From Thunnus maccoyii (Eukaryota > Chordata > Actinopteri > Scombriformes > Scombridae): a DNA stretch of 64,000 nt. Below are positions 17,835-50,181 of the stretch, piece by piece. The DNA is taken from contig NC_056551.1 of NCBI RefSeq assembly GCF_910596095.1, positions 10,284,501-10,348,500 of the forward strand, given 5' to 3'. The notes beneath the pieces are model-generated. The model was given only the letters and a program-made list of their open reading frames with translations, did no database searches and had not been told where the DNA came from. A program made the position numbers and the translations under genes. Each line of letters opens with the position of its first letter. Position 1 is the first letter of the stretch.

Positions 17835-20800
17835 ATGGCGTTGAAGGCCAAAGTGTTGTACGACTTCCACTCTGAGAACCCAGGGGAGATCTCCATAACA
17901 GAGAATGAGCTGGTGACTCTGTTCAGTGAGGAGGAGCTGGAGGGCTGGCTGGAGGGGGAGAACAGCAAGGGGGAGGCTGGCCTCTTCCCCGCCTCCTATG
18001 TGGAGATCATCAGGGACCACATCACCTCCAACACCAACAACGGTTTCTCTTCGCCCAAAACCAAAGTGACCCCCACCCACACCTCCTACGCTCCCCCTGA
18101 CCCCCAGTCTGCGAGAGGGCTCGGGGCAGGTAGTGGTGGCAGTGGTGGAGGCAGCTTCCACACCAGCCAGGGCAGCGATGACGACTGGGATGACGACTGG
18201 GATGACAGCTCCCCGGCGACCATTGCGCCCCAGGGTCTGGGCAGCTCGCCCCCCTTGTACCCGGTGACCACCTCCTTGCCGGGGCGGCGCAGCGGCGCCC
18301 AGCAGCATCAGCAGCAGGCCAAGAGCTCAGCCACGGTGGGGAGGAACCTCAACAGGTTCTCCACCTTTGTCAAGTCCGGAGGGGAGGCCTTCTTGCTTGG
18401 GGAGGCCTCTGCCTTTGTGAAGGATGGGGACAGGATCTGTGTGGTGATGGGGAAGCATGGGCCCGAGTGGCAGGAAGACCCATACCCGTTCACATGCACC
18501 ATTGATGATCCCACCAAGCAGACCAAGTTCAAAGGCATGAAGAGCTACATGTCCTACGGCCTGACCCCAACGCACACCAATGTACAAGTCAACCGCAGGT
18601 AGAGGCTCTCCTTCTTCTTCTCTTGTTCTCACTCTTGGGTTTCCATTTCTTTACCATATCAGGCCCAAATATTCCTGTGATCACAATTGTTCCTACGAAA
18701 TGGCCAAAACAGAGCTGACCGTGGCCTTTTGCCCGCTATATCCCCAGGAATGTCCCTTTTCCTTTCTGAGATTCCCCCTGTACCTTTCGCATTGTTTCCT
18801 TGTCAGTAGGTCTGACGTTTACATTTCCCAAAACATCCCCAGAATTACTCACACCTCTTTCTTTTCTTCTTCTCTGTAGGTACAAACACTTTGACTGGCT
18901 CTACGCCCGACTCGTGGAGCGTTTCCCTGTCATCTCGGTGCCACATCTGCCTGAGAAGCAGGCCACCGGCCGCTTCGAGGAGGACTTCATCTCCAAGCGG
19001 CGGAAGGGCCTGATCTGGTGGATGAACCATATGACCAGCCACCCTGTGCTGGCACGCTGCGATGTTTTCCAGCATTTCCTAACATGTGGGGCAGATGAGA
19101 AGGCCTGGAAACAGGGCAAGAGGAAAGCAGAGAGGGATGAGCTGGTCGGGGCCAATTTCTTCCTCACTATCAGGTACAGTTGGAGGCTGTGTTAATTACT
19201 GCTTTAATACTGAATTTGACATTTTTTATTACAAGCCTATAAAGTAAGCAGACACAGAAAAGCCTTTGACTTGTTTTATGTTGTAATAAACTGTATTTTA
19301 CAGATGTATGAAGCTATACAAGGAGTTTTTTTCTTTCGTCCTTCGACAATCTATAATCTAACAAGTAGTTGTTGTAGATGGTCGTGGGATGCTGCTGTTG
19401 ATATGTTTGTTATGCAGATGATATGACATCACATCCTGATATTTCCAGCAGTTAAACTGATCTAAAACACCAAGTTTGTCGCTAATTTTCATCAACATTA
19501 AAGAGTCATACAAGAAGAAAAGCATTGAAGAAGAAGCTTGTAGTGTAGCCTGTAGTGGCCTACATCAACACCAAGAAGCAGGAATCAGATCAGAATGCAG
19601 TGTTGCTGTAACAGGGGTCAGGTTTTCAATAACTTGGAAAACTATGTCTTCACTTTTGTGTCACTATGTGTCTTCACTTTTACACAATCTACATCTATAA
19701 CTGAAGGAAGCAAATTTGCCCCTATTCCTGGAGATTGTAAAAGGTAATCTGGGAAATGTAGGCAATCACTAGCTGAAGTAGATATGAAAGATGTGGCAAG
19801 TGGAGAGAAAGAGGGGACACTTAAAAAATAAACACTTCATAGTGTGTCAAAGAGGTCAAAATCAAGTTTGTGGTGTTGGATTACATAGTTTTATTTTCAG
19901 GTGTTCAGGTCAGTTGAGGATATTTGCCCTTTAGCAAGCCACTGTTATCAGTTTTCCTTGTTTCATTGTGATGAAATAAAGCTTTCGTCACTGGGAGTGG
20001 CTGATATGAGGGTGAGATAAGCAGATGACTGGAATAAGCTGCTCTACCAAGTTTGTGTAATAAAGACATAAAAACATAAAGAAACATAAAAAAAACATAC
20101 AGGACTTTCAGCATGAAGCCACATGATCTTAATATGTAAAATACATTCTCATTTCTCCGTCAGCACGCCCGATGTCCCACTGGACCTTCAGGAAGTTGAG
20201 AGCAAAATCGAAGGCTTCAAGACCTTCACCAAGAGGATGGACGAGAACAGCGTGGTCGTGAACGCCACCATCAATGAGTTCGCACGCAAACAGATTTCAG
20301 GATTCAAGAAGGAGTACCAGAAAGTCGGACAGTCCTTCAAACTCCTGGGGCAGGCGTTCGAGCTGGACCAGCAGGCCTACTCAGCCGGTCTGAACAAGGC
20401 CATCGCCTACACTGGTGAGGCCTACGAGATGATAGGAGAGTATTTTGCTGAGCAGCCGCGCCAGGACCTGGATCCCATTTCTGATCTGCTGGACCTGTAC
20501 AGAGGACACCTGGCCAATTTTCCTGACATCATCCATGTGCAGAAAGGTGAGGATATGTGTGTCTTTATGTAAATGTTTGTAAATGTAGAGGAACTTGTCC
20601 TGTATCTTAATGTGATTAATCAGAGTTTGAGCACCTACATTTCCACTTAGTTTGTAGTACAGTAAATGTCAAAGATGTCTCATCCCTGAAAAGGAAAGAA
20701 ATAGTGCTGTGTCGAGGCAAGCGATAAGGGAAGTACATGGAAAATGTGACATTTTGACAAATAAAAGCATGATTTCAAGAAGTGAAACAGATGCAGGACC

Positions 20801-23800
20801 TCGCCTATGTCTATGTCTGGCCACAGGGAGTTCAGAGGTCAAAGGGTTGTCTTCAAGTAGAGCTGGTAGGGACTCAGCAGTCAGGAGTCTTGCTCATTGA
20901 AACTTCTGCTGGGTGGAGGGTTGCAGACATAACCCAGGGATGAGTAATAGTAGGAGGCCTCACGCTCTCTGTTCCCTTGCCACAGACTTTAATATCATGT
21001 GAAACAAGAGACTCACAGATTTGTTTATTTTAACTTGCCTTAAAAAATAATTAATGATGTATCTAACAGCCATCCAGCCTGTAGCTTCCATTAATCACAT
21101 CAATGTAAAGGCGAACACTATACAAAGACCCAGATTCTGACTGTTTCCTAACCAAGCCGACATCTGTTTTCATTTACTGACTTGAAATGTCAATGTGGGT
21201 CGAAAACTGAAACCCGTGGCCAGTCCATTGTAATGCTGGGAGCCTGTACTTGATCACTTGAGAACACACAGAAAAAAACACACACACACATACACGCACA
21301 CATGTACAAAGGACTTGCAGAGGAGTTAGCTTGTTACTTCCCTGCAGGTTGGGAGGAGGGAGTTGCTCCTGGCACGAAAAGTCCTGACGTTTGCCAATCC
21401 TAGAGGCACTGTTTCTATAGTCCGCTGAGCTCTGTTCTCTTGATACAATCACAGCTCCGAACTATGGAAACACTGCCTGAATCCCAATAGACTCTGACTG
21501 ACAGGACTTCACCTACTTCCTGATTGACAAATGAACACATTGTTTTATGTCCCACATAGAGCTTAAACCTCTAACAACTTTGAACATTTCTCTCGAGTCT
21601 GTTACACTGGCACCCACTGTTTCTCTAAACTGTTAAGTAACAAGTTTAAAATCCCCTTCAGAAATGTTTTAAGATGTATATAAAATACTAACTTTGAATC
21701 AGTGTTGCCAGATGTACAATAATTATCATATTTGTACAATAAATTTACCTGCTGTACAATGCACTATCAATAATACCAAAAGTCCTACAATATCTGATCA
21801 TTTTGTGACCCTTAGTATTAGTACAGGGGAACCTGTATGTGCTACGTCCCACAAGTTAAGTCAATTGCCGCCTTCCAGTGCTGTGGGAAATTAAAAACTC
21901 ACATCTACAGAACAGAAGAAATACGCAACAAATTGGACAGTAGCCTGGATGTCTAGAGCAACATCAAAACATCACACTGTTAAGTAGCTTCTAACATGCA
22001 TGTTTTTTCTCTGATATGCTTCCTTTGATAAGATGTTTTACATTAGTCATTTAGAAATGTTTTTTTAGTCATATTTGTGACTGCGCATCTTCAAAGTGGG
22101 ACTTTATGGTGCGTCCATGAACACAGCATGTGTTATAGCCAGCACAGGCAGCGCACCAGACCATGTTTTCTGAAATTACACATTTACGCCTATTTGTGCT
22201 CTTGGTTATGATTCGCGTATAATCATTTTCCCCAAAATATGATAATTTTAAGCCTCTGGTACAATACTTTAACATTTCCCATCTGGCAACGCTGCATTGA
22301 ATAATAATTTGTGTCTGATATGGTTTTTCCACAAGAAAAGTTAAATTATCTTGTTAAAATCCATAAAATGGCATCTCCTCTGTCTCCCTCATTAAAAATT
22401 CAATATATGAATATGCAAATATTTTTCATTTCTAAAGTTTTCCTGCTAAACACAAGATATCTCCTACTTCACTCAAAAGTCCATTCCCAGTGTATGTGCA
22501 ATGGAGCGTTTCCAGTTTCCACATCACACTTGTGTAAGTTGTTTACTGGACCACGATTGGCTCCAAACTTGTTGTGGTGTCAGAAGTCCTGCTCGTAGGC
22601 CCGTTCCTTAAAATCAGATCAGTAAGCTCAAGAGAAACTTTCCACTTTTCAGCATATGAATGTGAAAACAGCCTTCTAGTGTCAAACTCTGCACGTACAT
22701 CATTCTACATAATGAAGCTCAAACATTCAACTGTAGGAACAAGAAGAAAAACACATTTTGAGTGGAGGGGGACTTTAAGTTTAGATCAGGCTAAATTTAG
22801 CATTTGGAATTTGGTCTCTGTAAAGTATGACCTCATGGGAAATTTGTGTTGATGAGGACTCAAACAAGAAGGGGTTTCTTGCTCTCAACTAAATGAAAAT
22901 GTACAAAAGCTGTACCCTTACCTTAAAGTGGCAGCTTAGACATTTAGTATTGCAATTCCTTTATGTTGTCGGACATGTAAGAGGCAGTTTAAAAATCAGA
23001 ATCAGAACCTGGGGCTGAGAGCGCCTGACATTTAGTCTCTAGTAACAATTTAAAGTCTTAACTCCAATTCGAGATAAGCCTGATGACATTATCCAGGTTA
23101 GTTTTTCATACTTTGCAAGACTCCTTTAAGAGCCGCAGTAGACCTCCAACAGTGCATGTGTATAATTAAGTAAATTAACTGACTGTAACCTTAGCTTAAA
23201 CAAGACAGACTCATAGTCTTAAAACAATTGTCGGTCTTAAAACAATAGTCAGGTCTCCACATGAACATTTAAAGAGGTTTTGCTTGCTGTAATTAGTCCT
23301 GCTAATTATGACCATTAAAAGATGCCTTGTAAAGGTGCTTACAATATAACTGATGTGGGACAAAATCCACAGTCTTCATTTTCTGCAAAAATAGATTTAA
23401 AAGTTTATTTGAAGCTAATATGAACTTACTAAAAAGCTTCTTTAGTATAAATTCCCTTTTTGTGTTTCCCTCTTGAGCCTTGCTGGAAGGATAGTAACAA
23501 AAAGAGAGAATTTGGCACTAGCAAACTGTAACTTCCAAGATATCCATTTGATTTGACTAATTTGGATGGCTGAAGCTTCATATTAGCTTAGAATAAACTT
23601 TGAAATACATTCCCCAATCACTTACATTGAAAGTGCATTATAGGGGATCTCTTAATGGTCACTGAATAGAAGGAATAATTATGGCAAGAAAAACATGTGT
23701 CAATGTTATGTGTTATGTGTTGTTATGTGACTTTTGTTTTAAGACAGAATTAAAAAATGGTGAACCTATCCTTTAACCACCAAGCCTTTAGATTTAACAG

Positions 23801-28040: not shown

Positions 28041-28126
28041 CTGTCAACCACAGTGTTTGCTTTTTTATACTACCACTTGGAGGGGCGCCAAAGTTGGAAA
28101 CGTTCAAATTCTACACATAGTGGCTG
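28041..28126. repeat. Short dispersed repeat E, copy 1
   Basis: It shares CTGTC-CCACAGTGT, TTTTTTATACTACCACT-GG, GCCAAAGT, CAAATTC-ACACATA and AGTGGCT with 51269-51354. About 86 bases, non-coding, located in the snx18 3' UTR region. Confidence 0.6.
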
Positions 28127-28289
28127 AAAGGATGGTTGCCCTACTTTTTATGCCAACCTGCTACTCCAAAACATTCCTGTTAAACCAACCAGTAACCAGA
28201 ATAAGATCACAGACGTTGTTGCGAGTTTGATTTCAGTATTTTGTTGCTATTGAAGGATCCACCACCAGGTGGGTTATAAAAACATTTTC

Positions 28290-28295
28290 AATAAA
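28290..28295 (+). other. Candidate polyadenylation signal of snx18
   Basis: AATAAA about 1.47 kb after the snx18 stop is the first canonical signal I see on the coding strand. A shorter 3' UTR using a variant signal is possible. Confidence 0.5.
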
Positions 28296-31262: not shown

Positions 31263-31649
31263 TTAGACCCAGTACTGGTCATCTTTAAGAGTCGGAGTAG
31301 GGGACCTCGGTCTCACAGAGGTCTTGAATCCTGCAGTGACAGCTGGGAGCACATTACAGCCAGTTACATTATCTCGTTCACTACTGTTCACACCTCTAAT
31401 ATTCTCATCACCATCAGCTTCAAATGGACCCCAGAAGGTCATCCCAGGGGCCAGACTCCTCCTTCTGGGACTTATGGGTACCCTGGGTGAAGTAGGGCAA
31501 CTTGCAGTGCCAAGCGGGGTGACTACCACAGAGGGTATAGCCACGCTCCGCTCTGGCCGGCCCAGGTAAGGGCTGCCCTCAGTAGGTGGCGACAGTGCAG
31601 CAAGCTCCTGGAAGAGCTGCAAGCGGGCCTGTTTCTCCTTTCGATGACG
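31263..31649 (-). other. Cytoplasmic tail of the CSPG4-type protein with PDZ ligand
   Basis: The tail starts RHRKEKQARLQLF directly after the membrane span and is rich in Ser-Pro and Thr-Pro sites (TSPRVPISPRRRS, RPRSPTPTLKD). It closes with QYWV, identical to the C-terminus of CSPG4, whose known PDZ partners include MUPP1, GRIP1 and syntenin. The rest of the tail differs strongly from human CSPG4. Confidence 0.85.
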
Positions 31650-34600
31650 GAACACCAGAATCAAAACTATGAGGATTATGATGAGAAGCAAACAGGCCAG
31701 CAGCGGCAGGATGATGAGGAGAGGGTCGGAGGCAGGGCGAGGGAGGACCTCCACATGAAGCGGGTGGATGTTGTCAGGAGGGTTTGATGGACCGTGTTTC
31801 ACCAGGTCAGGAGGAATGAGAGGATGTGGGATATAACTGTGACCCCCTCCAGCTCCCTCTACACTGCTCCCCGATCTTCCCCCATGACTTCCATTGCGAG
31901 TGTGGTTCGCCCAGCGGTTGTGAGGCCTCAGCTTGTGCTGAGTCCTGTTGTGGTGCTTATGTGACACAATGTCACTGTGTGTCGTGGAGCCACCTCGTCC
32001 CCCTCCTCTTCCTCCTCCTGTAGTAGTCCTGTTGTGTTGCGGCAGACGGGTCGTTGTGTGTTCACGACTTGCACCATTTGCTTTATTTAAACCAGTCGAA
32101 CCATGATGCATCTGGTGGTGGGGTAAGATGGTGAAGTGAAGCTCACCCTTCGCTGGTTGGACGTTTCCAGCCTTCAGCAGGAAGATGAACGAATCGTTGA
32201 GAGGTAAGGCAGGGGTGTGGCCTCGAGCGGTTGTGAGCGCTGATTTGTTTTTGAGAAGCTGGTTGTCGCTGTCGCTGAGAGTTTCCTCAATGGCGACCCG
32301 GCCTTGCACCACATCGCGGAACGTAAACGACTTCAGGATTTCTGATGCTCGGTTAGGATCATAGGTCATCTGCAAATGCATACACGCACAGACAATTATG
32401 TTATCAGTGACACAAGTCACCAAGGTTATATTCATCTTTCTAATCTTTTATTGACTGCATACTGTTCTGAATTTACCCTTGAAGTTGGATTTCTCACAAG
32501 CGCTTGAATTTGGTTTTTCAACAAACTCTTCACAGTATTATCATGTGGTGATAATTTTAGTTAGCTTAACAAAAAATGAATTAATTTTGTACAGAAGTTA
32601 ATGTAAAACTGTAAAGGAGGAAAACAACCTAAAAACTTGGCATGCCATGAAAAATGGTCCTTTAAACTGTATCAAAAGATGACAATAAACAGCTTTACCT
32701 TGACTAGTTTGCCATGTTTTGGTGGAGAAAGAACCTGAAAGACTGGGTCGACCCTGCTGATTCTTGCCAGCTCAGAAGCATCCATCATGGCTTTACCCAG
32801 TTTCACAGCGATACCACTGGGCACTCGTACTGGCTCCCTCAGGTAGATCAGAGGCCGCACAGTTACATTCACTGTCTGTGCAGTTACATTTCCGTATTCA
32901 ACACTGGGCGACGAGGCCGACACTGAAATTTGGAAGCTGTCCTCTGATTCGCTTAGATCAGTCATGTGGTAGACAACACGGCCAAGCTGGAGGTCCTCAT
33001 GACAGAAGGTCGTGACCTCCTGGTCGTTGATAGCAATGCGTCCGTGTCGAGGGTGTGTGGTGACTGTGTATGTGATGTTGGCTTGGCTGCGGCCATTTGT
33101 TTGAGCTGCGAACTGGTTGGTTGTCAGGACCACAGCGGTCCTGCCTTGAACAAATGACAGGCCTGTGTTGTTCACCATGGAGACAGAGGGCTTAATCACC
33201 TCCAAACTAAATAGTTTGTAGAGTGGACGGTGATGGCCATCAGTTACATTGAAGTAGAAAACTCCTGTTGAAGGCTCACCCTGACGGAGGGAACACAGGA
33301 AGGAAGTTGGAAAGAACAGAAAAACATTTTAAACAGCCCCTCCCTGTCAATTGTATTATTAAATAACAACAACCTAACTTTGCTGAAAAGAAAGAGCCCT
33401 ACTAATGGGTTACACATTTTGAGCAAGTTTTAAATCTCTGCAAGTTGTTTTCCACATCACACTGAAATGAATGGAAATCAACAGATATCTGGAAATCAGG
33501 GGAAGTACATCAAAATTACCTAAAGCCTATGTTTTGCAGAGGCTGTCTTTAAGAAGCTCTGAGTGGAAGTGCACTTTCCCTGGCATGTAAGACTATAATT
33601 TTGCAGCTTAAACGTCTGTGGTGAATGACACACAGCACAACACAGTGGGGAATAAAAAACTGAATTTAAAGCCCCCATGTGTGGGATTTTATAAGGCCCC
33701 AATGGCTTCAATGCATGCTCATTTGTCAACAAGCAAAACCTTTCACCATCAGATGCTGATCACATAAAAAATTACACACATAGGGGCTTCAGATGGACAT
33801 CCCTAATGCACACACACACAAACAAAAAGAATTAGAGCTGGTTCTTCACCTGCTGTGTAAAATGCAGCCTGCCGTGGTTGACGTCGTACTGGGTGAAAGA
33901 AGTCACCGGCTCTGGCCTTTCGCCCAACGTCAGGTAGCCATTATTGGGCTTACTAATCACAAGGTAATGCAGCTCCTCTGGAGGGGTGTCATGATCCTCA
34001 ACCTATACATGTAGATTGTGTTTATGATTATGCAAGACTTTAAAGGGAATAAGATTCAAAGACAACATATCTTATCGATAGATCAAGCACTGTGTTTTAG
34101 GATTAATGTCAATAACAGAAATGTTTGTTGGTATAATGGTGACATCTTAGTGATAACAGTCCAGGGGGAATGATCACAATCATGAATTCTATAACATGGT
34201 ATCTATGTATGTAACATGGTATGGTCTGGTATGATATTGATGTTCTGCATAAACTGTAGAGAAAAAAAACATCTGTATAAAGGATAAACAAACATTATGA
34301 AAATTATGATCTCAAACTAAGAAAAGATAAAGTAAAAATATATATTTTGACCATAACTGTGCAGTCCTACTAGAAGATACACCTGTTCACTTTGCACTGG
34401 CCCACCTGCAGATTGTCTGGTCCAAGTACAACTCTCTCTCCGACTACGACCTTCATACTTGGGGCTCTGTTCCTGATTAGTGGTGGCTGGTCGTTGACTG
34501 GTGTCACTGTGATGTTAAACATCTCCGTCACTGTCAGCCTGTCCTTGGCGCGCCGGTGAGAAACCATGTCGAATGATGAGACTGAGTAGAGAGGAGAAAA

Positions 34601-37600
34601 GGAGGAGGAGGAAGAGGAGGAGGATGATGATGAGGAGGAGGAGGAGGAGGAGGAGGAGGAGGAATCAGAGGAAAAAGCAGACAAAGAAGACGAAGAGGAA
34701 GAGGAGGAGAGATCCAAAGGAGCCACCCAGGCCCGGAAAGTGAAGCTGTCACTCCTGGTCTCAGAGTCATCATGGATGTATGTGATGCCAAACTTGTTCA
34801 GGGTGACCTGGGAGAAATCTGGTTGATCCCTGAGGAAAGATGAGAACATAAAATTAAAAGGTTTTGATTTCAATGTTTGTTTCTACAACATTTATTGAGA
34901 CATCAAGAAAGGAGCCTGGCACCTGGTGAGGTTGTGCCCTTGTATAGACAGAGCCCCGTGGCGCGGCAGAGAAATCACACGGTAAAGGATGTGGTGGCCT
35001 TTCCGGTGGGGCTCAGGGACTCTCCTCAGGAGATTGGAGGCATCAAGTTTAGACCTGTCAATCGTCACCCTGCCTCCCTCTGCCACCACGGCACCTGAAA
35101 GACGGATACAAACAGCATGTGTGGCCCTCTCAAACTCGTATTCTTCCTGGTAAAAAGAGCATTTATCCTCCTGAAAGTATATAGCCTGATTTTATATCTA
35201 GCGGAAGTTGTGCTGCTATTTTCAAATGTTTGAATAATTAGGTAAATGCAGAACATTTGAAATAAAGAATAAAATAATAATTCAAAAGACATGGTTTTGA
35301 ATGGGAGGGAGTTAAATATGAAAAACAAAACCAACTTTAATCAAAATGGAAGGAAATCATAATTTAGACATCATAAATTCACATTGACACATGTCTCAGG
35401 CAAGCAATAATATCAAGACTGGATTTAGGGTAGTATTTTAGATTTGCACAGTACCTGCGTTGTTCAGGAGTCTAGTCTTGTGTTGAGGGTTGTCGTGATG
35501 TTCGTTGGCCTGGTAGGAGATTAAGATGGTGAAGACGTGTGGATGAAGGAAAGCAGGAGGAGAGGACACGGTGAAAGAGAAAGAGTCTGAAGCCGACCAT
35601 CCCACTGACTCTGGCTTGTTCTGATCGTACAGGATAACTCCATCATTCACCTGAGAGAGAGATGAAGAGGTAAACAGGAAGGAAAAGCAATCACTTTATT
35701 AGAGAAGTAAACAAAAGACACAAAATATATAAGCACCTGTAATCGATTACACAATCTACTGTAACACACAAACAGACACACATATCCTTACCATGCTCTG
35801 TGTGAATGTAGAAATGTTTCGTGTAGAGTTGTCGGGCATACGTTGGACCAGACGGCCGAGTTTAGGAGGAGCAGTCACTGCAAACACCACAGAGTGGTTT
35901 CTTCTGATGTCGTGGATGTCGTTGGTTGACACCTTGAGCTCCTGCTCAGAGATTGGTGTCACAGAGCCTTTAAAGGGAACAACGACACAGTGAGAGAGAG
36001 GAGAAGCTCACAAGAGCAGAGAGGAGGCAGCGAGGGATCCTGGTTAACTGCGGTGTTTGTGGACTTTGTCAAATTTACAAACAGCAACAAAAGGCCTGAT
36101 GGACTAACAGTGAGGGATAAAATAAATGAATAAATTGATTAATTGGAAAATGACTGACTTATTTCAAACAAACTTGTCATCCTCCAAACTTGGCCGACAA
36201 GAAGCAAATATTTTATGTGTTTTTGAGCTGTAACTGCAGTATCTGCTTGGGACAATTCAATTTAAGAAAATTTAACTAGTGTGCAGAAATGGCTGAAACC
36301 AACACAAATTTTATTCATAATAAGGTAAATCCCAAGTAATGCCAGGACCCACTAAATATTAAATATTATTCAACTACAAGACAGCCAGTAAAATATCTTA
36401 AGATGTTCGGGAGGACGTCAGGAGAGTGTAATTGAACTACAGATTTTGAAAACCTGGTTTTCATCAATAAAAAATATATAATAATGTAAGACCTTTGTTG
36501 TTCTCAAAATGCATTAGAGAATTCTGAATTATCTGAACACATATTATATTAAATGTGATCATGTAGAGTTGTACAGTAGGTTAATTTTACAGGTTAACAT
36601 CTTTATCACCACAAGCAAGCCAAAAAAACAGTTGAATGTTATCAGTAAAAAATCTGAATAACGGCTTCACTTATGTAACCTTGACCAGTAGGACTACTGA
36701 TAAGTATGTTTACAGGTTAAAACCACTTAACTCTCATACAGTGGCACTATCAGCCTGGCACTGATTGGGCACAAAGGCACTGTAATCTGTTTATGTAGGC
36801 TGTAACATAATGCACCAGTCTAAGGCTTAGAGTTGCGATGCCACCCAGTGGCAACTGCACTATATTTAAATAGCTTTCCTTTTCATGTTAGAAGAGAAGC
36901 AGATACAGAGATTTTAATGAGGGTGCTTTGGTGAAGCTGAGTGAGCTGTTATACCTGGGTAAACCTCCATGGGATGGTTTCTCTGCAGGGTAAGAACCAG
37001 AGAATGGGCAGTTGTGCTGAAGATCTGGCGAGGGGCAAAGTTGACGCCGTCATTCACCTGGAAGTGAAAGCCACCAGACGATGCACCTACACAAGAAGAG
37101 AGACAACAAGAATTCATTCATCCATTCTTACATTTATTCTAGACTGATCTGCTACTCTAGGGCTGCATAAACATATAACAATTAAGAGAATATAATAATA
37201 TGCTCTACTTAAAAACTAACTCTAATCTGCCCTTTTTGCTATTCTCACCACTGTGCACAAACACCAGTTGTCCAGTTTCTATGTGATTCTGGGTGAAGTT
37301 AAGGATGTGTCTGGAGGGGGCGCTCTTCAGGGCTAGGTGGCCGTTGCTGGGTGGTGTGACGATGAACTCCAGCTCGTCAGATGGAGTGTCCAAGTCCTCT
37401 GCGCTGAGATCATCTACAGAGATTTCTGTAACCGATGCCATCCACACCTGAAGAAACAAGAGGAAAGATTAAAGGAAAGGACAGAAAGCTATTAAATTTA
37501 GCTATAAAATACTAGTTTGACATTGTGGGAAATACGTTTATCCACTTTGTTGCCAAGAGTTAGAGGAGAAGATCGATACCACTCTGTTGTGAGAGTGGTA

Positions 37601-40600
37601 TCAATCTTCTCATCTAACTCTTGGTAAGAAAGCAAATAAACAGATTTCCCAAATTGTCAAAGCATTGCTTTAACTGTTGTGTTGCATTAGCATACTTGGC
37701 AATAATAAAGAGTCACGACAATGGCATTTCTGTACTGAAATTTATAGTATAAGCCAATATATATGTTGATACTGATATATCCAAAATAAACTAATATAAA
37801 CTAATATTGCCTAATTTCAAACAGCATCAGTACATAGTATGCAATGTGTGCATAATTCCCAGAGACTGCCTTTTCAAAGAAGCTGGTTAGGATGTTTCAG
37901 AGCATAGATTAAGACCTCTTAAGTGGTTTTGTCATTTCAAAACTTTCAGATTGTGTACACTTCCACTTTTTCTAAAACAAAAATTAATCAGAAGTATGCC
38001 TATTTACTCAGAAGAGATGAGGGAACCAGGGGATGAGGGAATCATTTGGGCTAAAAATAACCATCATGTCTACTTCCTACGAACGTGTCCTACGACTGTA
38101 TATCCTCACTTCCCACCTTCAGACCTCGGTTAGTTGTAACAACAGGAGTCTCATCATTGACAGGTGTGACGTTGATGTGAACAGTGCAGGGCAGACTATG
38201 CTTCCTGATTTCCGTCTGATTGGCCACTATGGTGAAGTTGTCGCTCAATGTCTCGCTGCCGTCGTGGATATAGGAGATGTACTCGCGCTCCACCTGGAAA
38301 CAGAGAAGATTCATGAGGTGATTGAAAAGCAGTCAGATATTATGTGTGATTTCCAAATAATTAAGCATCACTTTCCTTAAGATGCACTCAAGGAAAAAGG
38401 TTTATTAAGCTGAGTTTTTAATTCAATATCACAAACCTAACACTGTTGCTCTCCCACTGTAAGTATTGCTTTGAGTAATATGCATAACTAATGGCTAAAC
38501 CCTTCATCGGATCGCACCTAAACACTTCCTACATCTTCTCAATTACCCCTTTAAAAAGAAAAAGAGTTCAAACCAAAATATCTAACATTTCCCTCTGTGT
38601 GAATGTGGTGGTTTACATGTGCACATTTGATTGCTCAGTCAAACCTCAGTGTGTGTGAAAGCAGTGATGGGCATCCCTGGGATCCGGCTATGCTCCAGGT
38701 GTCCGTGTCGTGGTGGAACAATGATCTGGTACAGGAAGTTCATCCCTGAGAAGTGATGATTGGTGACCTTGATGATGTTAGGGGTCAGTGGCAGGGACGA
38801 CCCCTCATCGAGGATCAAGTCAGACACCTACAGAATCAACCAGCAGAAGAAAGCACTGATTGACTAGATTGACGGTTGTTCACTCGGATCGCCTTTGTGT
38901 AATCCTTTCATGAATTTCTGTTTATTTTCATGCAATTCTCTCCTTTTTAAGACATTATGCTCATTTACAACTCAGTAGACCAGGCTCATCTTACATACAT
39001 ACATCATCACACTCTGTACCTTTAGAGGAAGCAGGATAGGGATGATATCAATCTCCAGCCTGACAGGTCCAACCTTTGTGACTCCATTGGTTGCCTCCAA
39101 CAAAACAGAGTCGTTGGTGTTTCCTTTAGCCTGTTGATGGTAGACTATAAATCCCTGGTTGATGTCCTCCTGAGTGAAGGAGGTTGTTGGCTTCTTTCTG
39201 AAGCCCTGAAGGGTGGGACGGTGCAGACAGACAATTAAGTGCTGTTTTACTTTGAATCCTTTGACACAGTAAAGCTACAGTGTGAGGGGGTGACAAAGGT
39301 CTCAGGCATAAATACCAACTGTCTTTTTTCCCCTTGATGAGTATCAAGTCAAGCATTTTTAAAGTCATTGTTCATGTCATTATAAAACCTTAGGAGCAAA
39401 TGTATCTCTACTCTCTGATAAACGTACTGTAAGCTACCTGCTCAGCACCAGACTACAGCCAGATAAAGATAGCAGGTAGCTGGTGAACATAGTGGAGGAT
39501 TCTGCTCCACTTAGTTAACTTGACACCTAACAAAAGTTGGGTTAAAAGCTGGTTGTAAAGTTGGTTGTACCTGATAGAGGTGCTGCTGTTCTCCATTGTT
39601 GTTTCGCTGCTTGTCCTCAGAGGATAACTTCTGAATGAAGCCCAGGGTGGGAGGACTTTGGACAGTAAAAACTATCTCTGAGGGCTGGCTGTCATCATGA
39701 ACCACCTGTATAGAAAGTAAGCACATATTGCAAATATTTCAGTTTTGTAAATTCAGGCCCCATTATTACACAATCCTTGAAGATGATACAGGATGTACTG
39801 TAGAGAATGCAAAAGATGACATACGTCACCCGACTCCATACAAGGAAGTGAAACATTTTCAGTTCTCAAGTATTTCATTCAGGGAAAAAAAAACTATAAA
39901 ACTTTGACAGCAATCTGTTACATAATATTCCACAATATGATCACAGTCACAGATATTAACAATAAACCCTGATATACTGCCAAGTCCTAGATGCCAGTGA
40001 CTTATTTGCAATTTCAGAACCTTACCTCTAAATGTTCCCTGCTTATGGAGACATTGTGTCCCTCTGCCACCACCACTGGATTGTTACTTATGACTGTTGG
40101 CGGCCTCTGGTGACTCTCCAGGAAGATTTTTACAGATACTCCGATGTCCAGATGTACCTCCCTCCTCCCCTTGTCCGATTGCCTCTCTGTGTTCCTCTCC
40201 CTTGCTCTTGCTGTAACATTGAACACATCCGACAACTCATGGCTGCTGTCGTGGTGATATGCCAGGCGCCCTGCCACCAAATCTCGCTGGGTGAATATCG
40301 AAATTGCATCTGCTTCCGTCACAGTGTCAGGAGATCCATCATTAAAGCAAAGAACACCGTGTTTAGGTGGAAGGAAGACCTCAAATGTCACTTCCTGTGG
40401 GTCTCGGAGGTCGAGGTTGCTGAAGACGCTGAGGTTAGCAGAGGTAAGGGTCGTGATCCCACCTCGCTGGACCATGAGGCCTGTGTTGTTCTCCACCTGC
40501 AGGTAAGGATCCTGGGCCATCACCTGCAGCAGCCAGTTACACAACAGAGGAAGAGATGAATTATTTACAACAGCAGTAAGCGGACTCATTACTTTTTAAA

Positions 40601-43600
40601 ATTTTTGGATCACACAAAGCAGACACTGAATCTATTTTGCTGTGTCAGGGAAAATTCCTAATGATATTTAATTACAAGCAAATCATTTGTAGAAGAAGCT
40701 GTATTACTAATAATTAACATGAAAACATTATATGAAACAAACAATCACAACTTGATGAATTAATGTTGACTGCTTGCTATTTCCTACTATGCGTAATGCT
40801 ACTTTTCTATCTATTAATTTGTTTTGCCACTTTTGTGTCTTTCCCGCTTTCTCTTGTTTTTCACATGTTGTCTGTATTATTGTTATTTTAATGAGTAATT
40901 TATCATGGCTAAGGGACTACAGTTGAAAATGAGCTACTTGGCTAACACTGACACATTTACAGTAATGTACCTAGAAAAAAGAAATTTAAAATAAAATACA
41001 TAAAGCTTTGAGATATTATCACCTCCAGTAGTGTGGAAACATAATGTTTTCCATCTGATACAAAAAGCACAAAACGCCCAAAACTGACTCCTCTGTGGAC
41101 AAACAACACCTTTTTCTGAGAGGAAAGAAGAGAAGAGAATGACAGGTGAGGAGAAAACATCAGCATGTGTAATTTTAATACATTTACAAATTGGAAAAAA
41201 AACACACTGATATTACTCTTTAAATAAGAATCTAACAGAGTACCCAGAGGTCAAAGAGAGTTGGATTTGCTGTTTTAAGGTGTGAGCGTGCTTCAAATGA
41301 AGTAGTGCTTGTCTGGGGGGTGGGGGAGGGGTACAATTTTTGTAGCTTGCTGAAACCAGCAATTTTACAAGCAGACCCACTTTGCACTGCAATTGGTCAG
41401 GTGTGCAAAGGTGAGAAATTATGAAGGATTTGAACTTTTCTGTAAAGCTCTCTTACTTCATCACTTTTTGACTATACAACCAAGTGCAAAATATCAATGC
41501 CTTTAAGGACAGACTATAGACTGGATAAAGATAAACATAGTGAGGACGTAGCAAGGTGTGATGTTGTGACAACAGTCAAACTCAATTTGAGCCAGGAGAG
41601 CAGCAGGTGAGCAAACTCATAATCACAGCTGTCAGTCAACACCCACACAACAGAAATCCTGTTTTAAGTTTTCAACTCTTATTATCAGAGCAATAATTTC
41701 CAAAATGACCACCAGCACACTTATTAGAAGGCCCAGATTTAGCAATTGAGACCATAATGACTTATTTTAAAAACACGAGTGACTGAGTATTTCCAGAGAG
41801 AAGTTGAAACTTTTTGAATGGGAGTCAATGGGAGCCAGGGACTTTTTGAAGCCAGCATCTAGCAGTTGTTGGTAGCATTGCACTTGAGGGTACTTGGGCA
41901 TTTGCTTCAGCCTCAAGCTGTTGTAGCTGCTGCTTGGAACAGACTGTGGGAGAGTGTGCACCCTTATCCCCATTTGTACAATTCATCATGTCCCATCCCT
42001 CTTTGCCCAGAATTCAAGTGTAGTCATTCGTAACAATTTGTGTAAGCACATTTGCCTTTAGTCATGGTCAGACAACTCATTCAAGAGGCTTCTTGAGTTC
42101 TACCGGGAAGTTGCCAGGCCTTTAAACCTATTTTTGGATTATTCAAACACTGAGAGACACATGTGGGTTGTTGACATTATGACACACAAACATCTGAGAA
42201 CTAAAACAGAAAATCCATATAACTTTGACTCAGTGGTTTTTAATATTCTACCACCTGGATGACCAAGAATCTTCACAGATAAGTTACGCTAACCTGCTCG
42301 AGGTCCCGCTGTGTGAACTCGTACAGTTTGTGTCCAGTATCACTGGCCAACACCAGCTCTCCCATTGGAATCCCTCTCCGTGTGTACACCAACCAGTCGT
42401 CCTCAAAGTCAGAGTCGTTGTCCTGGAAACAGAGGTCATTCAATGTCACTAACCTCTGCCCATCACGGGCCACATGGAAAACTTTATTGACAACCCTGAC
42501 AGGTCTCTGATCATTGATGAGCTGGACAGAGATATTGAAGGTGTGTTCGGCTTCCTCCTTCTTGCTGGTGAGTTTGTGCGGTTTGTAAACTGCGATTTGA
42601 AAAGTGAAGGAATCCTGCTTGGTCTCGCTGTCATCGTGAACGTACATGATCCTTTCCTCAATGATATCCTGGTTTGTGAATGTCACAATGTTGTCATTTA
42701 TGGCAGATGAGTTGGAGAGGTTGATCCTCCTTATGTGCCCGTGCCTTGGGCTCACAGTAATGCTGTACTGGACCTCCCGGTTACTTGCTGTGTGAGTGAA
42801 CAGGATATCTTTGGTGATGACTTTACTCCCTCCTTCCAGGACTGAAAGGCCTTTGTTTACAACGGTGATGGCATTCGACTCGGCTTTGATGTTGAGTCTG
42901 AAGTCATAAGTTGTCGAGTTGGCGTGTGTCGAAAACACCTGGAAGCTGAATGTGTCTCTTGTGTCATCATGCAGCCTGTTGAGAAGTTCATACTTCACCA
43001 AGTTATCTGTGATGTTTTTCTGGCTGAAGGTTGAGTTCTTTTGAAGAACTTTGTTGTTGAGGAAAAGCTGACCTTTCTTTGGCACTGTTAGGAGCCTGAA
43101 GAAGAGGTCACTCTCATTGAGTTTGATGCCCTTAGAAATCACATGGAGGTCCTCTGGAGTGACAATAGCCTTCTGAACACCGTTGACCTCCATCTTGCTT
43201 CGCGTGACCTTGAAGTGGATCCAGCGTACCACAATGGGGAAAACAACCTCTTCAGTTGCTAGGGAATCAATAGTGATTTTACATTTGAACTGATCAGTGA
43301 TGTTGTTCTGAGTCTGAAGGCCGTGGTACGTGCTAAGGTATCGGATCCGCTCTTTTTCTAGAAGTTTCTGAGAGAAGAAAGTTGTCGGCTTCCATTCGCC
43401 ACTTGAGTGCAACCGCTGGAGTTCACCGTATTGTGGCAACTCTGTAACATCATAGCGGATTTCCACTGCCTGATCGGCCACATTAACTTGTACTGCAAGA
43501 TGACTGGTGGTGATGAACGAAGCCCCACCTTGGTTCACCTCTAGTCCAGTATTATTCACCAGTTTGTGTTCTAGCACTACCGCCATAATCCTCAAAACTA

Positions 43601-46600
43601 CTGTGTTGCTCAGCTGCAGAAAAGAAAGAAACAAACTTGTTGCAGTAAAACAATTAAACCAACAATATAACTCACATACTCTGTGTTCCATTTTATGTGT
43701 TTATAGTGTCTTAGGCAGGCTACTACATTACCTTATGCCCATCGCTGACTCTGAGTGCCAGCCTAGAGGTGGGGACCCCAGTGTGGACAAAGCTGATCTT
43801 ACCCTCCTCCAGATCATGCAGGGAGAACAAGTTAACGGCCCTGGAAAATAGATGCAACACTGTTAACTTCAATGCTGTTTTTTGTCTCTTACTCTACTTT
43901 GTTTGTCTGATGCTGCAAAAGGAGATTGGAGATCAGGATTAGCAACAGAGCAGTGAAGATGATAATGTGGCCAGTGTGTCACCACACACTAGTCACACTT
44001 GAGGTTCAATTGAGCTCATGAGCAACAATAGGAAGGACTGCTTTCAGAAAGAGAAATCAGACATTTAGTTGCCAGAATATAATGATGAATAAATGAGCAG
44101 TATCACCTTGATTAGTATATATCTACATAACCTGCGACAACAGTTGTGTTCTGTGCATATAAAGAACTGTTGTGCATGTTTAGAGGTAATCTATAACTTC
44201 AACAGAAGGTCCTGGTCCACCCAGAGACAATAGTGAACAGAAGTGATAATCAAATGTGAATTTAAACTGCTGTAATAGCAGCAACCATTTTGGCTACGTA
44301 GCCAGGTGCAACAAGTTAATAATAGTGGCTTTGACTGTATGTGAAATGTGACAAGCTCATATCAGATGTCTGACATAATTGTATTGATCCTTTTGATAAA
44401 GTTGTCAGGTCCAGTATTTATAGATGAAGAAGATATTCTTTCTTGATATGAAGAATATCACTTTCTAGCTAGGTAACAATGGATTCAACACAACACACAG
44501 CTAGCTTCTGTTCCACTAACCTTCATTTCATAATGCAATTTTGCATGGAACATTTTGTTTAATCCAGATATAGATTGCATTATTTTTAAAACTGCAGCAA
44601 CCTCTCCACTAGCCCTCACTGACTGGTTGTAAGAAGATTTGCGAGGCACTGTAAAGCCTCACGAGCCATAGCACCAACCTGCCGGGGTAATCCTGGTGCT
44701 CAAGGTGTCCGGCCTCAGTGTTGAGGTTTCCCAGGGAGCTGAACACCAGGTCTGCAGGACTGCTGTCAGGGTCCGACACTCTCAACACATCTGTTGTAAG
44801 CTGGGAACATTGTGGTTGTATTAACTTTCAACTTCTTATTCTTCTTCTTGTGCATCAAAAACATGTACATACCATCCGGGCAATCTGCTGTACCTACCGG
44901 TCGTTTGGAGTTCTCCACCAGAGTGAAAAGGTTTCCCTCTGGCAGGCTGAGCACAGGTGCATCATTAACAGGACTGATGCTGATATCAAAACGGTGCAGA
45001 TGGTTGCCCTTCAGCAACACAGGAAGCTCCTTCTTATTGCTGGAGAAGACTGAAAACATGAAGAAGTCTTGCTGGTCCTCTGACCCACTGTGAACATACA
45101 TCACTCGGCCCTGCCACAGGTCGAGCATACTGAAAGTCCGGTCCTTCTCTTCTGATCCCATTGTGATAGTCCTCTCCTGCCCTTCTTCCAGCATCCCATC
45201 TGGGTCTGGACTCAGGTCCAGGCGGAGCTGGCCATGGACAGGCTGCTCCTCAATACGGAACTTAAACTGGGATGGATGGATGCCCAACTTCCGGAAATCA
45301 AGATTCACCTGGAAGGAAGTGCAAACAGAGACTTATATATATCAATGGTGACATATGAAAACTACACACCTCCACCTTATTGTTATTGGCATTAATGTGT
45401 AAGAACCGTTTGCCAAATGACTAAAAGTGACAGCCAGTGACAACCAGTCCTACCTTTATGTGTTTGGGCTCCAAGGGTGCCCGGCTTCCCTCCGCTACCT
45501 CTAACTTCCTCAACAACAGAAAGTTGGAGTTCTTCTTTCTATCACTGTTGTTGCTCAGTGGTTGTGTGGTTGTAATATCAAACTCAGGACCATCTGTTGG
45601 GCTAGTGGTGGTCATTGCATCTGGAGCTTGTCCTGTCTTGCAGCCCAAAGTGATGTCCTTAGTGACAACAGCATGAGGGAGGCCTGTTCTCTGAGTGTTC
45701 ACCCTAATGTTTCGGAGGCAGCCTTTAAACGAGCCTCCTCCTCCAGTCATTTGCCCCCCAGCTGCAGTGGACATCAACCCAGCTTGCCTCACTTCTCCAC
45801 GCACTTGTTCATCTAGCCCTCCCAGGAAGAGAGGCCCTTTGAGCTGGATGACTTGGAGCTCCAGACTCAGTTTGGCCTTGACCAATTCCTCGCCCACCTT
45901 CAGCTGGATGCTGTGGGGTAGCAGGTGCAGCTGGATGGGATACCAGGTGAAGTTGCCATGGACATGTGTTAAGGAATGCAGCTCAGTTTTACTCCCATCT
46001 CCATTTCCAACCGTTGCCACCAGGTGACCATCTCTGATCTCTATAGCAACAAAACCTCCCTGGTTGCCGGAGCTGTACAGGACTATACCATCTTCTTCTC
46101 TCGCAGAGGGGTGCAGCTCACATTCAAATAACCCCTCTTGAGGTACTTCCCATGGTGGTAGAGTGATGAAGGCTTTGGAGCTGAAAAAACTGACAGAATC
46201 CTCTTCTGTCGCAGAAAACTGCGCACTACAGCCCAGAGATACCTCATGGATGCTCTTGTACCCAGAATACGGCCTCAGGCTGGACAGCAGATTATGTTCA
46301 TTGAACACAGCTTCATCTATGCAACCTCTAAACCCAGTGGAGATGTTGAGAAGATACGGATTGTTCAGCTCGACTGTCCCGCCAACAAAAAGGCCGTCCT
46401 CGACCCTGAGCTCCAAATCTGGTCCTGGCATACGGAGGCTGGTGTGAGAGTTTCGGTCCACAGTCATAGTGACATTATGGCGGTCATGAGTTAGCTCCAT
46501 GGAGTGCCACCCCAGGTCACTAAGATGGATGCCCTTTTCTGAGCGCAGCGAACGTTCACCTGAGCCCAGGTCCAGGCGTACCTGTGCGGGGACAGTGGAG

Positions 46601-48262
46601 ACAAGAAGGGGTGGATAACCAAGACACATGAAAGTTTGACAAATTTCTGTTTTTATGGCCAAATTCAAACTTTAATTTGTAAAAGAAAGAGTGGCAAGAA
46701 AAAGGAACAAAACACATAAAAGCATGTATTACATTGTGATGAGATTGGTTGACTGTAGATCAGATTATTCCCCAAACACAAATATAACCAAACTCTTTCA
46801 TGAGCAGCTCCCTCGCCTTATACTTGAAGCTTCCATTAAACTGTTGTGGTCTTCCCTCTTAACCTTAGTCATGAAGAAACTTGTTCTGAAATGAAGTCAG
46901 TGCCAGGGGGGTTTATTTTTTTTTCACTCTGCAAGCAATCTGACACCAAGCTGTGTGCATGCAGTCTTCTCTCTGGCTCTCCTCAGGATAGTAAATGCCA
47001 ACATATACAAGCTAAAACAGCCCAAGGGACAAATATTTTCTCGTTTTAAAGGTGTGAGGCATCTTTATGAGAGAGCCTCTAGAAAGATTTGACTTTGTCT
47101 CATCTGTAGCCATATTACTAAAATTTAAATCGTCTTTCCCTTGCCAAAGTACAAATTGATACACTTCCTCTCATAATGTTTGGGTCCATTAAAATGAACA
47201 TTTAATGCATTTGTGTTGTTTGTTTGCTTGTTGTGCTAATGTGTGTTATCCTAATGGCCTACCTGCAGGCGCCCAGAGATCAGCTCCAGCAGCAAAAAGT
47301 CTCTGCGTCCTGCTGCCAAAAATAGCAGCCCTGCCTGACTGGAGGTTCGAAATCGTACATGGAGCAACGTCTGAATGGACGACTCCATTGTCCGCAGGTG
47401 GATGTAGCCATCACCGTAGAATGACACTGTGACAATGTAAAAGGAAACAGAGAAGCTGAGTTGAATTAGTAGTTTGGCATAAAGTAATAATAATTTAAAA
47501 AAGTGTGTGTCTGTGGGGGGTATACCGGATTTATCAATACCAACGAGAGAATTTCACACAAATATGTAGTTGCAGTATTGCGAAACAATGTCATTAATAT
47601 GCTGACATGCAGTGGGTGGACACCATACCATGAACCATACCACCATACCATTTATAATTCAAACTTCATCATCTGGTATTATCTGTTTTTCTTTGGTTAT
47701 CTGTATATAACAGTAACTCCTAACACACAAAAAATGAATGAACATTTGGTGAGCAAAGGCCCAGTACAGACAATTTGCTGTATTGACTGGCTTGCCAATG
47801 TGGTGTCTACTCTGCCTTTTACACCTGCTATCCGAATTCAATTAATGACGACTAATGCATCCTGGAAATGTTCTGATGCTAATTAGACTTCACTGTTGAC
47901 CCAAATGACACAGATTGGACTTTTAGTTTTACAAACATCACTCAATGGGGCAGAGCAGCTCTGGAAGCACAAATAATGTCATTAGTTGGTTTAAAGTTTA
48001 GGGGGCAGAGCTTGAACTTGGTATTAAATACATACCATTAAAAAAACTTACCCTTTATTGCGTGGTATAAACACCTTTTAATATGTAATTGAAATGTATC
48101 ATTCAGTCGTGAGGCCAGTGTACCCACCACATCATCTGTGAACAGTAAAGCAGTCTTGATTTCAATCGATTTGACCTACAAAGCATCGGTACTGAAGCAC
48201 TCTGGCAAAATGACCGTCCATTTGTGGAAACCGTAACACACAGAAAATAGAGGTCAGGGAAA

Positions 48263-48294
<32 letters not shown>

Positions 48295-50181
48295 GTTGGT
48301 TGGGGATGGGTGGACACTCTAAAAACCCTATAAATCAAACAGTACAGCAGTATGTAATGGCAGTACAACTGAACACACAAAAAGAAAATATCTAAATGAT
48401 TCAAATTAAAAAACAGATCCACAAAACATGAGAAAAATGAGAAAAACTGAAGTCAAGACATTTTTATGAATATGAATAAATTAATCAAAACAAGGTAGAC
48501 TTTTACCTTTTACCTGTAGGAAAATCCAACCATTTAACAAAGTATTCAGTCTCTAAATACTGTTTTTCTTGCAGCAGGTTAAAGCATCTGCCCAAGTCTG
48601 CCAACATTGGAAATTAACTTCTAACTTTGATTGTTTTGTTACGTTATGGATCAAATTCTGCTGTTGAATTTAGGTATCATTTATTTTTGGTTAATTTGGT
48701 TGAATTGCAGTTGAGTAATAATAATAACAATAATAATAAAGTTTATTTATATAGCACTTATCAAAATGAGCAATTACAAAGTGCTTTACAAGGCAGACAT
48801 AAAGTAAACATGGTTCTTATTTGAGCAGCACATAAAATATAAATAACAGACTTTCCTTTTTGTACAAATTTGCCAAATTGATAGAAAACATTAGAAAAAT
48901 ATATTGTTTCTATTCTTTTATATCTGTTCTTCTGCGTTCCATCTTTCATCATTATTTTTTTTAAATTTATCATTTGCAATCGATCTCATTTGTCATAAAT
49001 ACTTTACTGTAATATCTTATTATTATGTTGTCTTTGAATCCATTTGCGGCATGGTTTTGAAATGGGCAGCTTGCCAAAAAAATATTTGTTATAAGACAGA
49101 TCCCAGTGAGAAGCACTCAGTCAGCAGACCGGCCCAGCATGCCGCTCTGCATAAAGCCTATAAGCCCACTGTCAGTGTAACTCATGTCTGTCCATCTATA
49201 TCTAATCTGCTTCTATGATGCCACTGAACATTGGATTATTAGTAATCTTCCTACAGTCACAGACACACTTCGAATGAATTAGCAGGTATAAGAATAGTAT
49301 AGAAATGTGGGGAACTTTCTGCTGATGGCCAATTCAGGTTTTTTTCCTGCAACCTTTAAATTCTTAGTGAGTGTTGATATTTTAGCGGCAGTTATTTAGA
49401 GTTAATAAGAGGTGTTGTACTGCAACATCTCTGTAAAAAGTTCATTAAGGCTGCTGCTGAATTCACCAAAATGTTTTCAAGGGAAGAGCAAGGAGCAACT
49501 TTTTAATGATAATCCTGACTTGTCTGAGTTGTTCTCAATTGTTTTATGTGAGGATTATCAGAAGAGTGAACATATTATATAAATCAAACTTTAAATTATA
49601 TAGGAGGGCATTTGGCAAGCGGTGTGGCATCAGATCAGGTACATACATCCTTGTAAATGAGATAAGTAAGAGCAAGCATTCAACTAAAATATAATCCAAC
49701 AGCGTATTGCCATATGTCTACTCATAATATTAAATGGATTAAACAATAAGCTGCCAACTGTCACAGACACATTTAAACTTAATCAAAGGTGGTGCTAACA
49801 AGGATATTGCTATTGCGTCAACGTTATCATTATCTCCTGTGTCTAATCACTATAAAGAGCTGGAATTTATAGAACCACAACCACAGTTTCAGTGTGAATG
49901 TTAAAAGTGAAGTTAAATAAATTTACACTAACAACCCTTAAAACTATACAGTATTTTTTACATGCTTTTTAAGGAAAAACCTTTTTTTTTTTTTTTTTTT
50001 TTTACAGTTGTACCAGTTCTATTGTAGTGGTGCAAGAAATGATTAAAAAGTAATGTTGTAGCATAATTGTTCACAGTTAGGAGAAGAAGTGATTTTCTCT
50101 CCTCTGCAGCACCTTACCTCCATAAACTTGTCCTGTGGAAAGCAGCAGGAGCAGAAACAGATCAGCCACAAAACTCCCCAT
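31263..50181 (-). CDS. cspg4-like: CSPG4/NG2-family transmembrane chondroitin sulfate proteoglycan (about 2576 aa)
   Basis: Cell-surface proteoglycan that links extracellular matrix and growth factors to the cytoskeleton, best known from pericytes and glial precursors. I assemble 22 coding exons: 50118-50181, 47263-47426, 45454-46581, 44898-45308, 44679-44800, 43732-43840, 42294-43613, 41023-41115, 40026-40523, 39571-39705, 39020-39205, 38645-38827, 38117-38293, 37249-37447, 36955-37086, 35792-35967, 35455-35650, 34923-35094, 34406-34829, 33850-34002, 32699-33280 and 31263-32369. All have GT/AG borders and phases that fit; 7731 bases in total. Order: signal peptide (1-21), two laminin-G domains (about 25-400), about 15 CSPG repeats recognisable by cores such as QPVHGQL, SPRHGHI, PPKHGVL, PPRHGHL, LPRHGAL and HPRHGRI with HDDSET motifs, a low-complexity stalk, a membrane span (about 2425-2448) and a 128-residue tail ending QYWV. 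Human CSPG4 has 2322 aa. Because it neighbours snx18 rather than snx33, it may be a CSPG4 paralogue lost in mammals. Confidence 0.9.
31650..31721 (-). other. Transmembrane segment of the CSPG4-type protein
   Basis: About 24 hydrophobic residues (LLIILPLLACLLLIIILIV and on to LILVF), followed at once by basic RHRKEK as a stop-transfer signal. It sets a type I topology together with the N-terminal signal peptide. Confidence 0.9.
31770..32120 (-). other. Gly/Arg/His/Asn-rich juxtamembrane stalk
   Basis: About 117 residues between the last CSPG-like repeat and the membrane are low-complexity: GGGRGGGRGGS, many His residues, and N-glycosylation sequons NRT (twice), NHT and NGS. It is open and in frame within the last exon, so it should be translated. 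Human CSPG4 has a shorter, differently composed stalk. Confidence 0.75.
34601..34715 (-). repeat. Coding (TCC/TCA)n microsatellite giving a poly-serine tract
   Basis: A GGA/TGA-type trinucleotide repeat on the plus strand reads as runs of Ser on the coding strand: about 8 Ser, LSAF, Ser-Ser-Asp, then about 21 Ser. It sits in the 34406-34829 exon, between FTFRAWVAPLD and FDMVSHRRAKDRL, inside a CSPG repeat. The frame stays open on both sides and both splice borders fit. Confidence 0.85.
37516..37661. repeat. Near-perfect 146-bp palindrome, foldback family D short form
   Basis: Arms 37516-37585 and 37592-37661 (70 bases each) are reverse complements with few mismatches around a six-base centre. 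The right arm (GTGGTATCAATCTTCTCATC) is shared with the long element at 26040-26300. It lies in an intron of the CSPG4-type gene. Confidence 0.85.
41116..42293. other. Intron of the CSPG4-type gene
   Basis: A 1.2-kb intron between the 42294-43613 and 41023-41115 exons. No exon is recognised in it. Confidence 0.6.
43841..44678. other. Intron of the CSPG4-type gene
   Basis: An 838-base intron without recognisable content. It ends in ATCTATTTTCCAG on the coding strand. Confidence 0.6.
45454..47426 (-). other. Laminin-G domain exons of the CSPG4-type protein
   Basis: Exons 47263-47426 and 45454-46581 encode residues 22-452. The first LamG starts VSFYGDGYIHLRTMESSIQT and includes LLLELISGRLQVRLDLGSGE. 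The second includes GLFECELHPSAREEDGIVLY and ends with a GSFKGCLRNIRVN motif. Conserved Cys residues and the FxGCI/GCL motifs (FRGCIDEAVFN, FKGCLRNI) are present, as expected for matrix-binding LamG folds. Confidence 0.88.
48266..48294. repeat. (GT)n microsatellite
   Basis: About 14 uninterrupted GT units followed by GGTTGGTTGGGG. Simple repeat in an intron. Confidence 0.9.
48715..48810. mobile_element. Retroelement tail (AATAATAA, TTTATTTATATAGCACTT)
   Basis: The AAT-type run, then GTTTATTTATATAGCACTTA, then TTACAAAGTGCTTTACAAG is a typical end of fish SINE/LINE families in reverse orientation. Only the tail is recognisable. Confidence 0.5.
50118..50181 (-). other. Signal-peptide exon of the CSPG4-type gene
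   Basis: Reading from ATG at 50179-50181 gives MGSFVADLFLLLLLSTGQVY, then G: a short N-region, a run of Leu and a small-residue cleavage site, i.e. a classical secretory signal. The exon ends GGAG|GTAAGG with one base left over, which pairs in phase with the next exon to give GVSFYGDG. It lies 2.7 kb from the next exon and is too short to stand out as an open frame. Confidence 0.85.

Follow-up and report, generated by a model that had tools for sequence, protein, structure and literature searches.

The C19 locus and its genes

The window analysed here is a 64,000-nucleotide stretch of the Thunnus maccoyii genome (C19:10284501-10348500). It holds two adjoining genes, snx18 on the + strand (17835..26812) and a gene of the CSPG4 type on the - strand (50181-31263), which are convergent and lie tail to tail. 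The initial annotation had placed a CSPG4-family gene next to snx18, and Pfam domains together with one intact spliced frame bear this out. The snx18 gene has exons at 17835-18598, 18880-19173 and 20164-20546, and a last exon from 26595 to about 26812. It encodes an SH3 domain (Pfam SH3_9, E = 1.2e-12) and a BAR_3_WASP domain, matched at 20156-20548 and over a short stretch at 19094-19174. The product is an SH3-PX-BAR protein of the SNX9 family, set apart from SNX33 and SNX9, and is 56.9% identical to human SNX33 (381.3 bits). Its assignment to SNX18 itself is by exclusion, since no human SNX18 PX-BAR chain was among the best 60 of 99 solved structures.

The model of the second gene, here called cspg4b (31263..50181), was made by spliced alignment of its homolog from C9 to the window, with exon 1 added. 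The aligner's first-exon guess (49646-47427) was replaced by 50117-47427. Three small introns that the aligner proposed (34682-34539, 32275-32222, and 31393-31331) were discarded before counting because the frame stays open there. The resulting frame, with 22 coding exons and 2576 codons, is open throughout and has a single terminal stop. The predicted protein has two N-terminal laminin G stretches (Laminin_G_2, E = 2.9e-34), Cadherin_3/CSPG repeats, a hydrophobic membrane-span stretch recognised by eye, and the C-terminal residues QYWV. For the laminin G exon (45421-46671), the match to human CSPG4 (PDB 7ml7 chain B) has E = 3.5e-35. Fifteen CSPG repeats are found in the window protein and in the C9 protein, and the C5 protein has 15 plus one short fragment match. 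The last four residues are identical across the three fish genes (window, C9, and C5), and human CSPG4 presumably also ends in QYWV, as a PDZ ligand. Human CSPG4/NG2, which we take to have two laminin G domains, CSPG repeats and a membrane span and to lie tail to tail with SNX33, resembles the window gene in both its domain set and its SNX9-family neighbour, at 31.5% identity. By its laminin G stretches, repeats, span, and QYWV terminus, the predicted protein is assigned to the CSPG4 family, with putative chondroitin sulphate. Judged from the sequence, it would be a single-pass membrane protein, namely a proteoglycan that faces the matrix and whose signalling runs via PDZ proteins.

The protein carries low-complexity inserts, e.g., a poly-Ser run. 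A run of serine codons lies within a CSPG repeat at about 34600-34710 (- strand); both the C9 and the C5 protein lack it.

Further genes lie upstream of snx18 in the window. The gene for SOSS complex subunit C, inip (8642-9998, + strand), was recognised by its exon 9885-9998, which matches SOSSC (PF15925) and is the single SOSSC match returned by the genome search. Its upstream exons (8642-8842 and 8911-9396) have no Pfam match and were recognised by eye only. A ccdc106-like gene (12341-14703, - strand) is located between inip and snx18; its frame 12341-12739 matches PF15794 (E = 4.3e-32), and its other frames were assigned by eye. A PX-type exon at 1426-1782 (- strand) is, by eye, what we take to be the start of the PX domain of snx30 or snx7, and Pfam gave no match to it. 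Of the snx30-inip pair that the initial annotation had placed close by, inip is supported by its domain match, and snx30 is a tentative name. Rfam returned 0 families within the window.

Three snx-cspg4 pairs and the age of the block

In the genome searched (782 Mb in 54 contigs), three pairs were found, each convergent: snx33-cspg4 on C5, snx18-cspg4b on C9, and the snx18-cspg4b pair of the window on C19. A whole-genome search with the laminin G exon returned three places, namely the window, C9 (54% identical), and C5 (29%). The repeat-rich exon gave the same three strong matches (C9, 526 bits; C5, 207 bits), and all other matches to it, among those listed and with only the best candidates scored, were at or below 53 bits, so that additional weak copies may exist. 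SNX9-family BAR domains are present near all three CSPG4-type loci, and two further SNX9-type genes are located on C17 and C24. The C9 cspg4b gene has 9 modelled coding exons and an unmodelled first exon, and encodes 2382 amino acids without the latter; one of its coding exons has 1191 codons and the last has about 683. On C5, frames of cspg4 reach 1193 and 635 codons. The window and C9 cspg4b proteins share about 53% identity over 2363 aligned residues. Among the weaker matches, those at C2:14.40 Mb, C6:25.99 Mb, and C13:17.30 Mb fall in giant CSPG-repeat frames that run uninterrupted for 1687 to 1894 codons, in genes that are presumably of the FREM type.

A tree of six snx sequences (277 columns) grouped the C9 and window genes with a support of 99.9/100 and split C5 plus human SNX33 from the other four (96.1/92). 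The C5 protein is 83.6% identical to human SNX33 (549.6 bits). For the CSPG4 family, the three arrangements of an unrooted quartet (637 columns) were scored singly, with residues 82-755 of PDB 7ml7 chain B as human CSPG4 and with no mammalian CSPG4B included. The arrangement of human + C5 versus window + C9 had an lnL of -5748.9 and both alternatives had -5828.2, a difference of 79. The window gene thus falls outside the pair of human CSPG4 and the fish snx33-linked cspg4 in this unrooted quartet. Identities to human CSPG4 are close together, at 31.5% for the window (651 residues), 32.3% for C9, and 34.1% for C5 (656 residues). The tree itself being unrooted, it is the position of the C5 gene beside snx33 that identifies it as the CSPG4 orthologue; the window gene adjoins snx18, not snx33. 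The initial annotation had suggested that the window gene and human CSPG4 are not orthologous and had expected another CSPG4-type gene beside snx33 in the same genome, and both points agree with these results. That the window gene is the human CSPG4 orthologue relocated next to snx18 is scarcely credible: domain order and C terminus are alike and its identity to human CSPG4 is just under that of the C5 gene, but a CSPG4-type gene is in place beside snx33 on C5 and the quartet gap is large.

The three pairs, the snx tree, and the CSPG4 quartet support the duplication of a block of one SNX9-family and one CSPG4-family gene before the human-teleost split, an early duplication that the initial annotation had also proposed. 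The block was probably duplicated by the 1R/2R genome duplications, with 2R as the simplest cause. An Isl1-type homeodomain, which we would expect near SNX18 from human synteny, was searched for as a check on 2R; it was found on C1, C25, and C5 (17.1 Mb), and its absence from C9 and C19 lends the 2R reading no support for these two. From their pairing and the protein identity of about 53%, we infer that the C9 and C19 pairs are copies from the teleost duplication.

By synteny and in-genome paralogy, the predicted window gene belongs to CSPG4B, which has already been named as a sister of CSPG4, and the paralogue is not new. Human SNX18, which we take to be at about chr5:54.5 Mb, would lie near the human pseudogene of this CSPG4-type paralogue, CSPG4BP. 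A table of PMC13192780 gives its position as chr5:54800401-54849824 (54.8 Mb), and an excerpt of the same paper describes variants lifted to hg38. In excerpts of the respective papers, CSPG4B is named in a bovine-related fetal testis study (PMC12863962), Cspg4b in a study of the Djungarian hamster hypothalamus (PMC8804604) and in rat tables (PMC8911431; PMC11083694), and cspg4bb in zebrafish (PMC12250029). As the gene is named in rat, hamster, and cattle, there was no loss across mammals as a whole, and humans have a listed pseudogene.

The synteny outline of the initial annotation therefore holds, as a confirmation, since this paralogue was already known. Its suggestion of a possible loss in mammals is contradicted by the CSPG4B names above. 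Its appeal to a longer protein with a diverged tail is weak, given the length of the C9 protein even without exon 1, the low-complexity inserts of the window protein, and the QYWV terminus of all three. Among the literature matches listed, no title concerned the snx-cspg4 block or its introns, which is no proof of absence, and the literature search found no papers on the exon count of CSPG4. Human CSPG4 presumably has about 10 exons, one of them giant.

Introns specific to the C19 copies

The window copies contain 14 introns (12 in cspg4b and 2 in snx18), of which 0/14 are present on C9 and 0/14 on C5. Among the 21 introns of window cspg4b, 8 are common to C9 and C5 and 12 are in neither, and the exon 1/2 intron lies outside the comparison. 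On C9, each of the 12 extra sites of cspg4b falls within an unbroken exon, and the C5 model has an intron at none of them. The C9 gene models have no introns beyond those shared. The 12 extra introns of cspg4b, all on the - strand and numbered in the direction of transcription, are located at 45309..45453 (intron 1, 145 nt), 44801..44897 (intron 2, 97 nt), 43841..44678 (intron 3, 838 nt), 43614..43731 (intron 4, 118 nt), 41116..42293 (intron 5, 1178 nt), 40524..41022 (intron 6, 499 nt), 39206..39570 (intron 7, 365 nt), 38828..39019 (intron 8, 192 nt), 34830..34922 (intron 9, 93 nt), 34003..34405 (intron 10, 403 nt), 33281..33849 (intron 11, 569 nt), and 32370..32698 (intron 12, 329 nt). The two extra introns of snx18, on the + strand and both in phase 2, are located at 18599..18879 (281 nt) and 19174..20163 (990 nt), within a stretch that is one exon in C9 and C5.

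The lengths of the extra introns range from 93 to 1178 bases, and 14/14 have GT-AG boundaries. Each of the 14 holds an in-frame stop or shifts the frame, and production of the protein would therefore require their removal by splicing. The initial annotation had missed both these introns and the second cspg4b-snx18 pair on C9. The cspg4 gene on C5 has an extra intron of its own in exon 4 (C5:9307718-9307881, corresponding to 77881-77718 of the joined stretch), which neither cspg4b copy has.

Gain of the introns and its possible causes

On the predicted exons, the best reading of the 14 introns is that one of the two copies from the teleost duplication gained them, by parsimony over three copies within one genome. 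If C9 and C19 were equally likely to gain introns and gains were independent, a split of 14 versus 0 would, by hand calculation, have a two-sided p of 0.00012, a figure that overstates the contrast if gains occur in bursts. We propose that an early vertebrate had one SNX9-family and one CSPG4-family gene arranged tail to tail, and that this block would have been duplicated before the human-teleost split to give SNX33-CSPG4 and SNX18-CSPG4B. The teleost duplication would then have doubled the SNX18-CSPG4B pair, giving rise to the C9 and C19 pairs. The C19 pair would have kept an intact cspg4b of 2576 codons while gaining 12 spliceosomal introns in it and 2 in snx18, and the C9 pair would have gained none of these. 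The insertions were probably independent events that a less constrained copy could tolerate. We regard this account as a whole as highly likely. Vertebrate genes seldom gain introns, and twin pairs in one genome with 14 versus 0 introns offer a clean natural contrast for when and why fish genes acquire introns. This contrast between the twin blocks is of more interest than the confirmation of synteny.

Weak constraint together with independent insertions is the likeliest route to the introns. We infer this cause from two observations, namely the copy-specific introns and the faster change of cspg4b. In a relative rate comparison of the window and C9 over 2258 columns, cspg4b had 188 versus 142 unique changes (p = 0.011), the window copy being the faster. 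The same comparison for snx18 gave 29 versus 21 changes, which is not significant (p = 0.26), and the branch lengths of the window and C9 copies in the PX-BAR part were 0.162 and 0.019, respectively. Silent sites between the copies are saturated, and dN/dS gave no value. The 14 introns lie in two oppositely oriented genes, and it may tentatively be considered that some local feature of the region, and not a feature of one gene or the other, drove a locus-wide burst, although we think this unlikely. If true, it would point to a property of the locus behind intron birth in vertebrates.

Introns might also be gained at this rate in every such locus of this fish, in which case the C19 copy would not be special. 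Excerpts of published work describe teleost intron gains in slc26a1/a2, serpin, mAChR, and melatonin receptor genes, and C5 cspg4 has its one extra intron. The C9 pair, however, had as much time and as long a coding sequence and shows only the shared introns, and the giant frames of the other CSPG-repeat genes (C2, C6, and C13) remain open. We therefore consider a general rate rather improbable. According to excerpts of PMC6298421, the mAChR ohnologs CHRM2b, CHRM3b, and CHRM4a/b gained introns in teleosts and, as stated by the authors, change more rapidly than their orthologues. As in the window, the new introns are in formerly uninterrupted exons of some teleost-duplication copies, whereas the window block has 12 in one gene and 2 in its neighbour. 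Excerpts of PMC12357937 report intron gain in slc26a1 and slc26a2 in Eurypterygii, including five introns in slc26a1; there, too, a fish gene whose exons are elsewhere long and unbroken acquired several introns. That case is not a contrast between duplicate copies in one genome, since no paralogs of slc26a1 or slc26a2 were found in ray-finned fishes according to the same excerpts. Intron gain in a duplicate copy is a known kind of event, and the number here is unusually high, making the C19 pair a large new case.

The gained introns could instead represent one family of mobile elements (introners) that inserted in a burst at this locus. Such a burst would account for 14 extra introns in two adjoining genes with 0 of these in the twin pair, and two of the introns hold stretches that recur elsewhere in the retrieved DNA: 184 bases of cspg4b intron 5 (41754-41937) are 83% identical to a stretch on C5, and 76 bases of intron 7 are 76% identical to window 61660-61735. 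When the introns were compared with each other and with the retrieved stretches, however, no common sequence was found among the 14 extra and 9 other introns, and the best match between two extra introns was an 18-base stretch (E = 0.014). When 22 introns were examined for direct repeats at their ends, only snx18 intron 1 was singled out, and its repeat is a pyrimidine tract of 12 bases. Insertions of great age may no longer be recognisable, and we regard one introner family as improbable.

With respect to target sites, excerpts of a study on serpins of ray-finned fishes describe several gains in one gene, possibly acquired together, with flanks that fit MAG|N (PMC2746811). The upstream flanks of the window introns are similarly MAG at 12/14 sites, whereas the uninterrupted C9 sequence has MAG at 3/12 of the cspg4b sites. 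Proto-splice motifs in C9 gave a weak signal, with AG|G at 2/12 sites (0.33 expected, p = 0.043) and AG| at 3/12 (1.0 expected, p = 0.07). Because MAG is present at only 3/12 C9 sites, a proto-splice target is not established, and the flanks may have adapted after insertion.

Finally, the 14 introns might be ancestral and kept in the window copy only, having been lost from C9 and C5, e.g., via reverse-transcribed messages. This would be consistent with 3/10 repeat-mapped extra introns lying at most two positions from a shared intron of another repeat, and with three phase-0 introns (two extra and one shared) at repeat position 19. Clustering of the extra introns at fixed CSPG-repeat positions was nevertheless not found among the 10/12 that could be placed, the position match being no better than chance (p = 0.18 to 0.40). 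Retention also needs the same 12 losses on both the C9 and the CSPG4 (C5) lines with neighbouring introns staying, all eight tested shared introns having been kept, so that gain is simpler. In snx18, the extra introns are at codons 255 and 353, and 0/10 introns in the aligned part of snx9 (C17) match them, the nearest being at aligned codons 246 and 364. Retention at snx9-like positions was therefore rejected for snx18, and an ancestral origin of the 14 introns is very improbable. Annotation of the C19 cspg4b gene needs 22 exons, compared with about 10 in its twin (9 modelled and one unmodelled).
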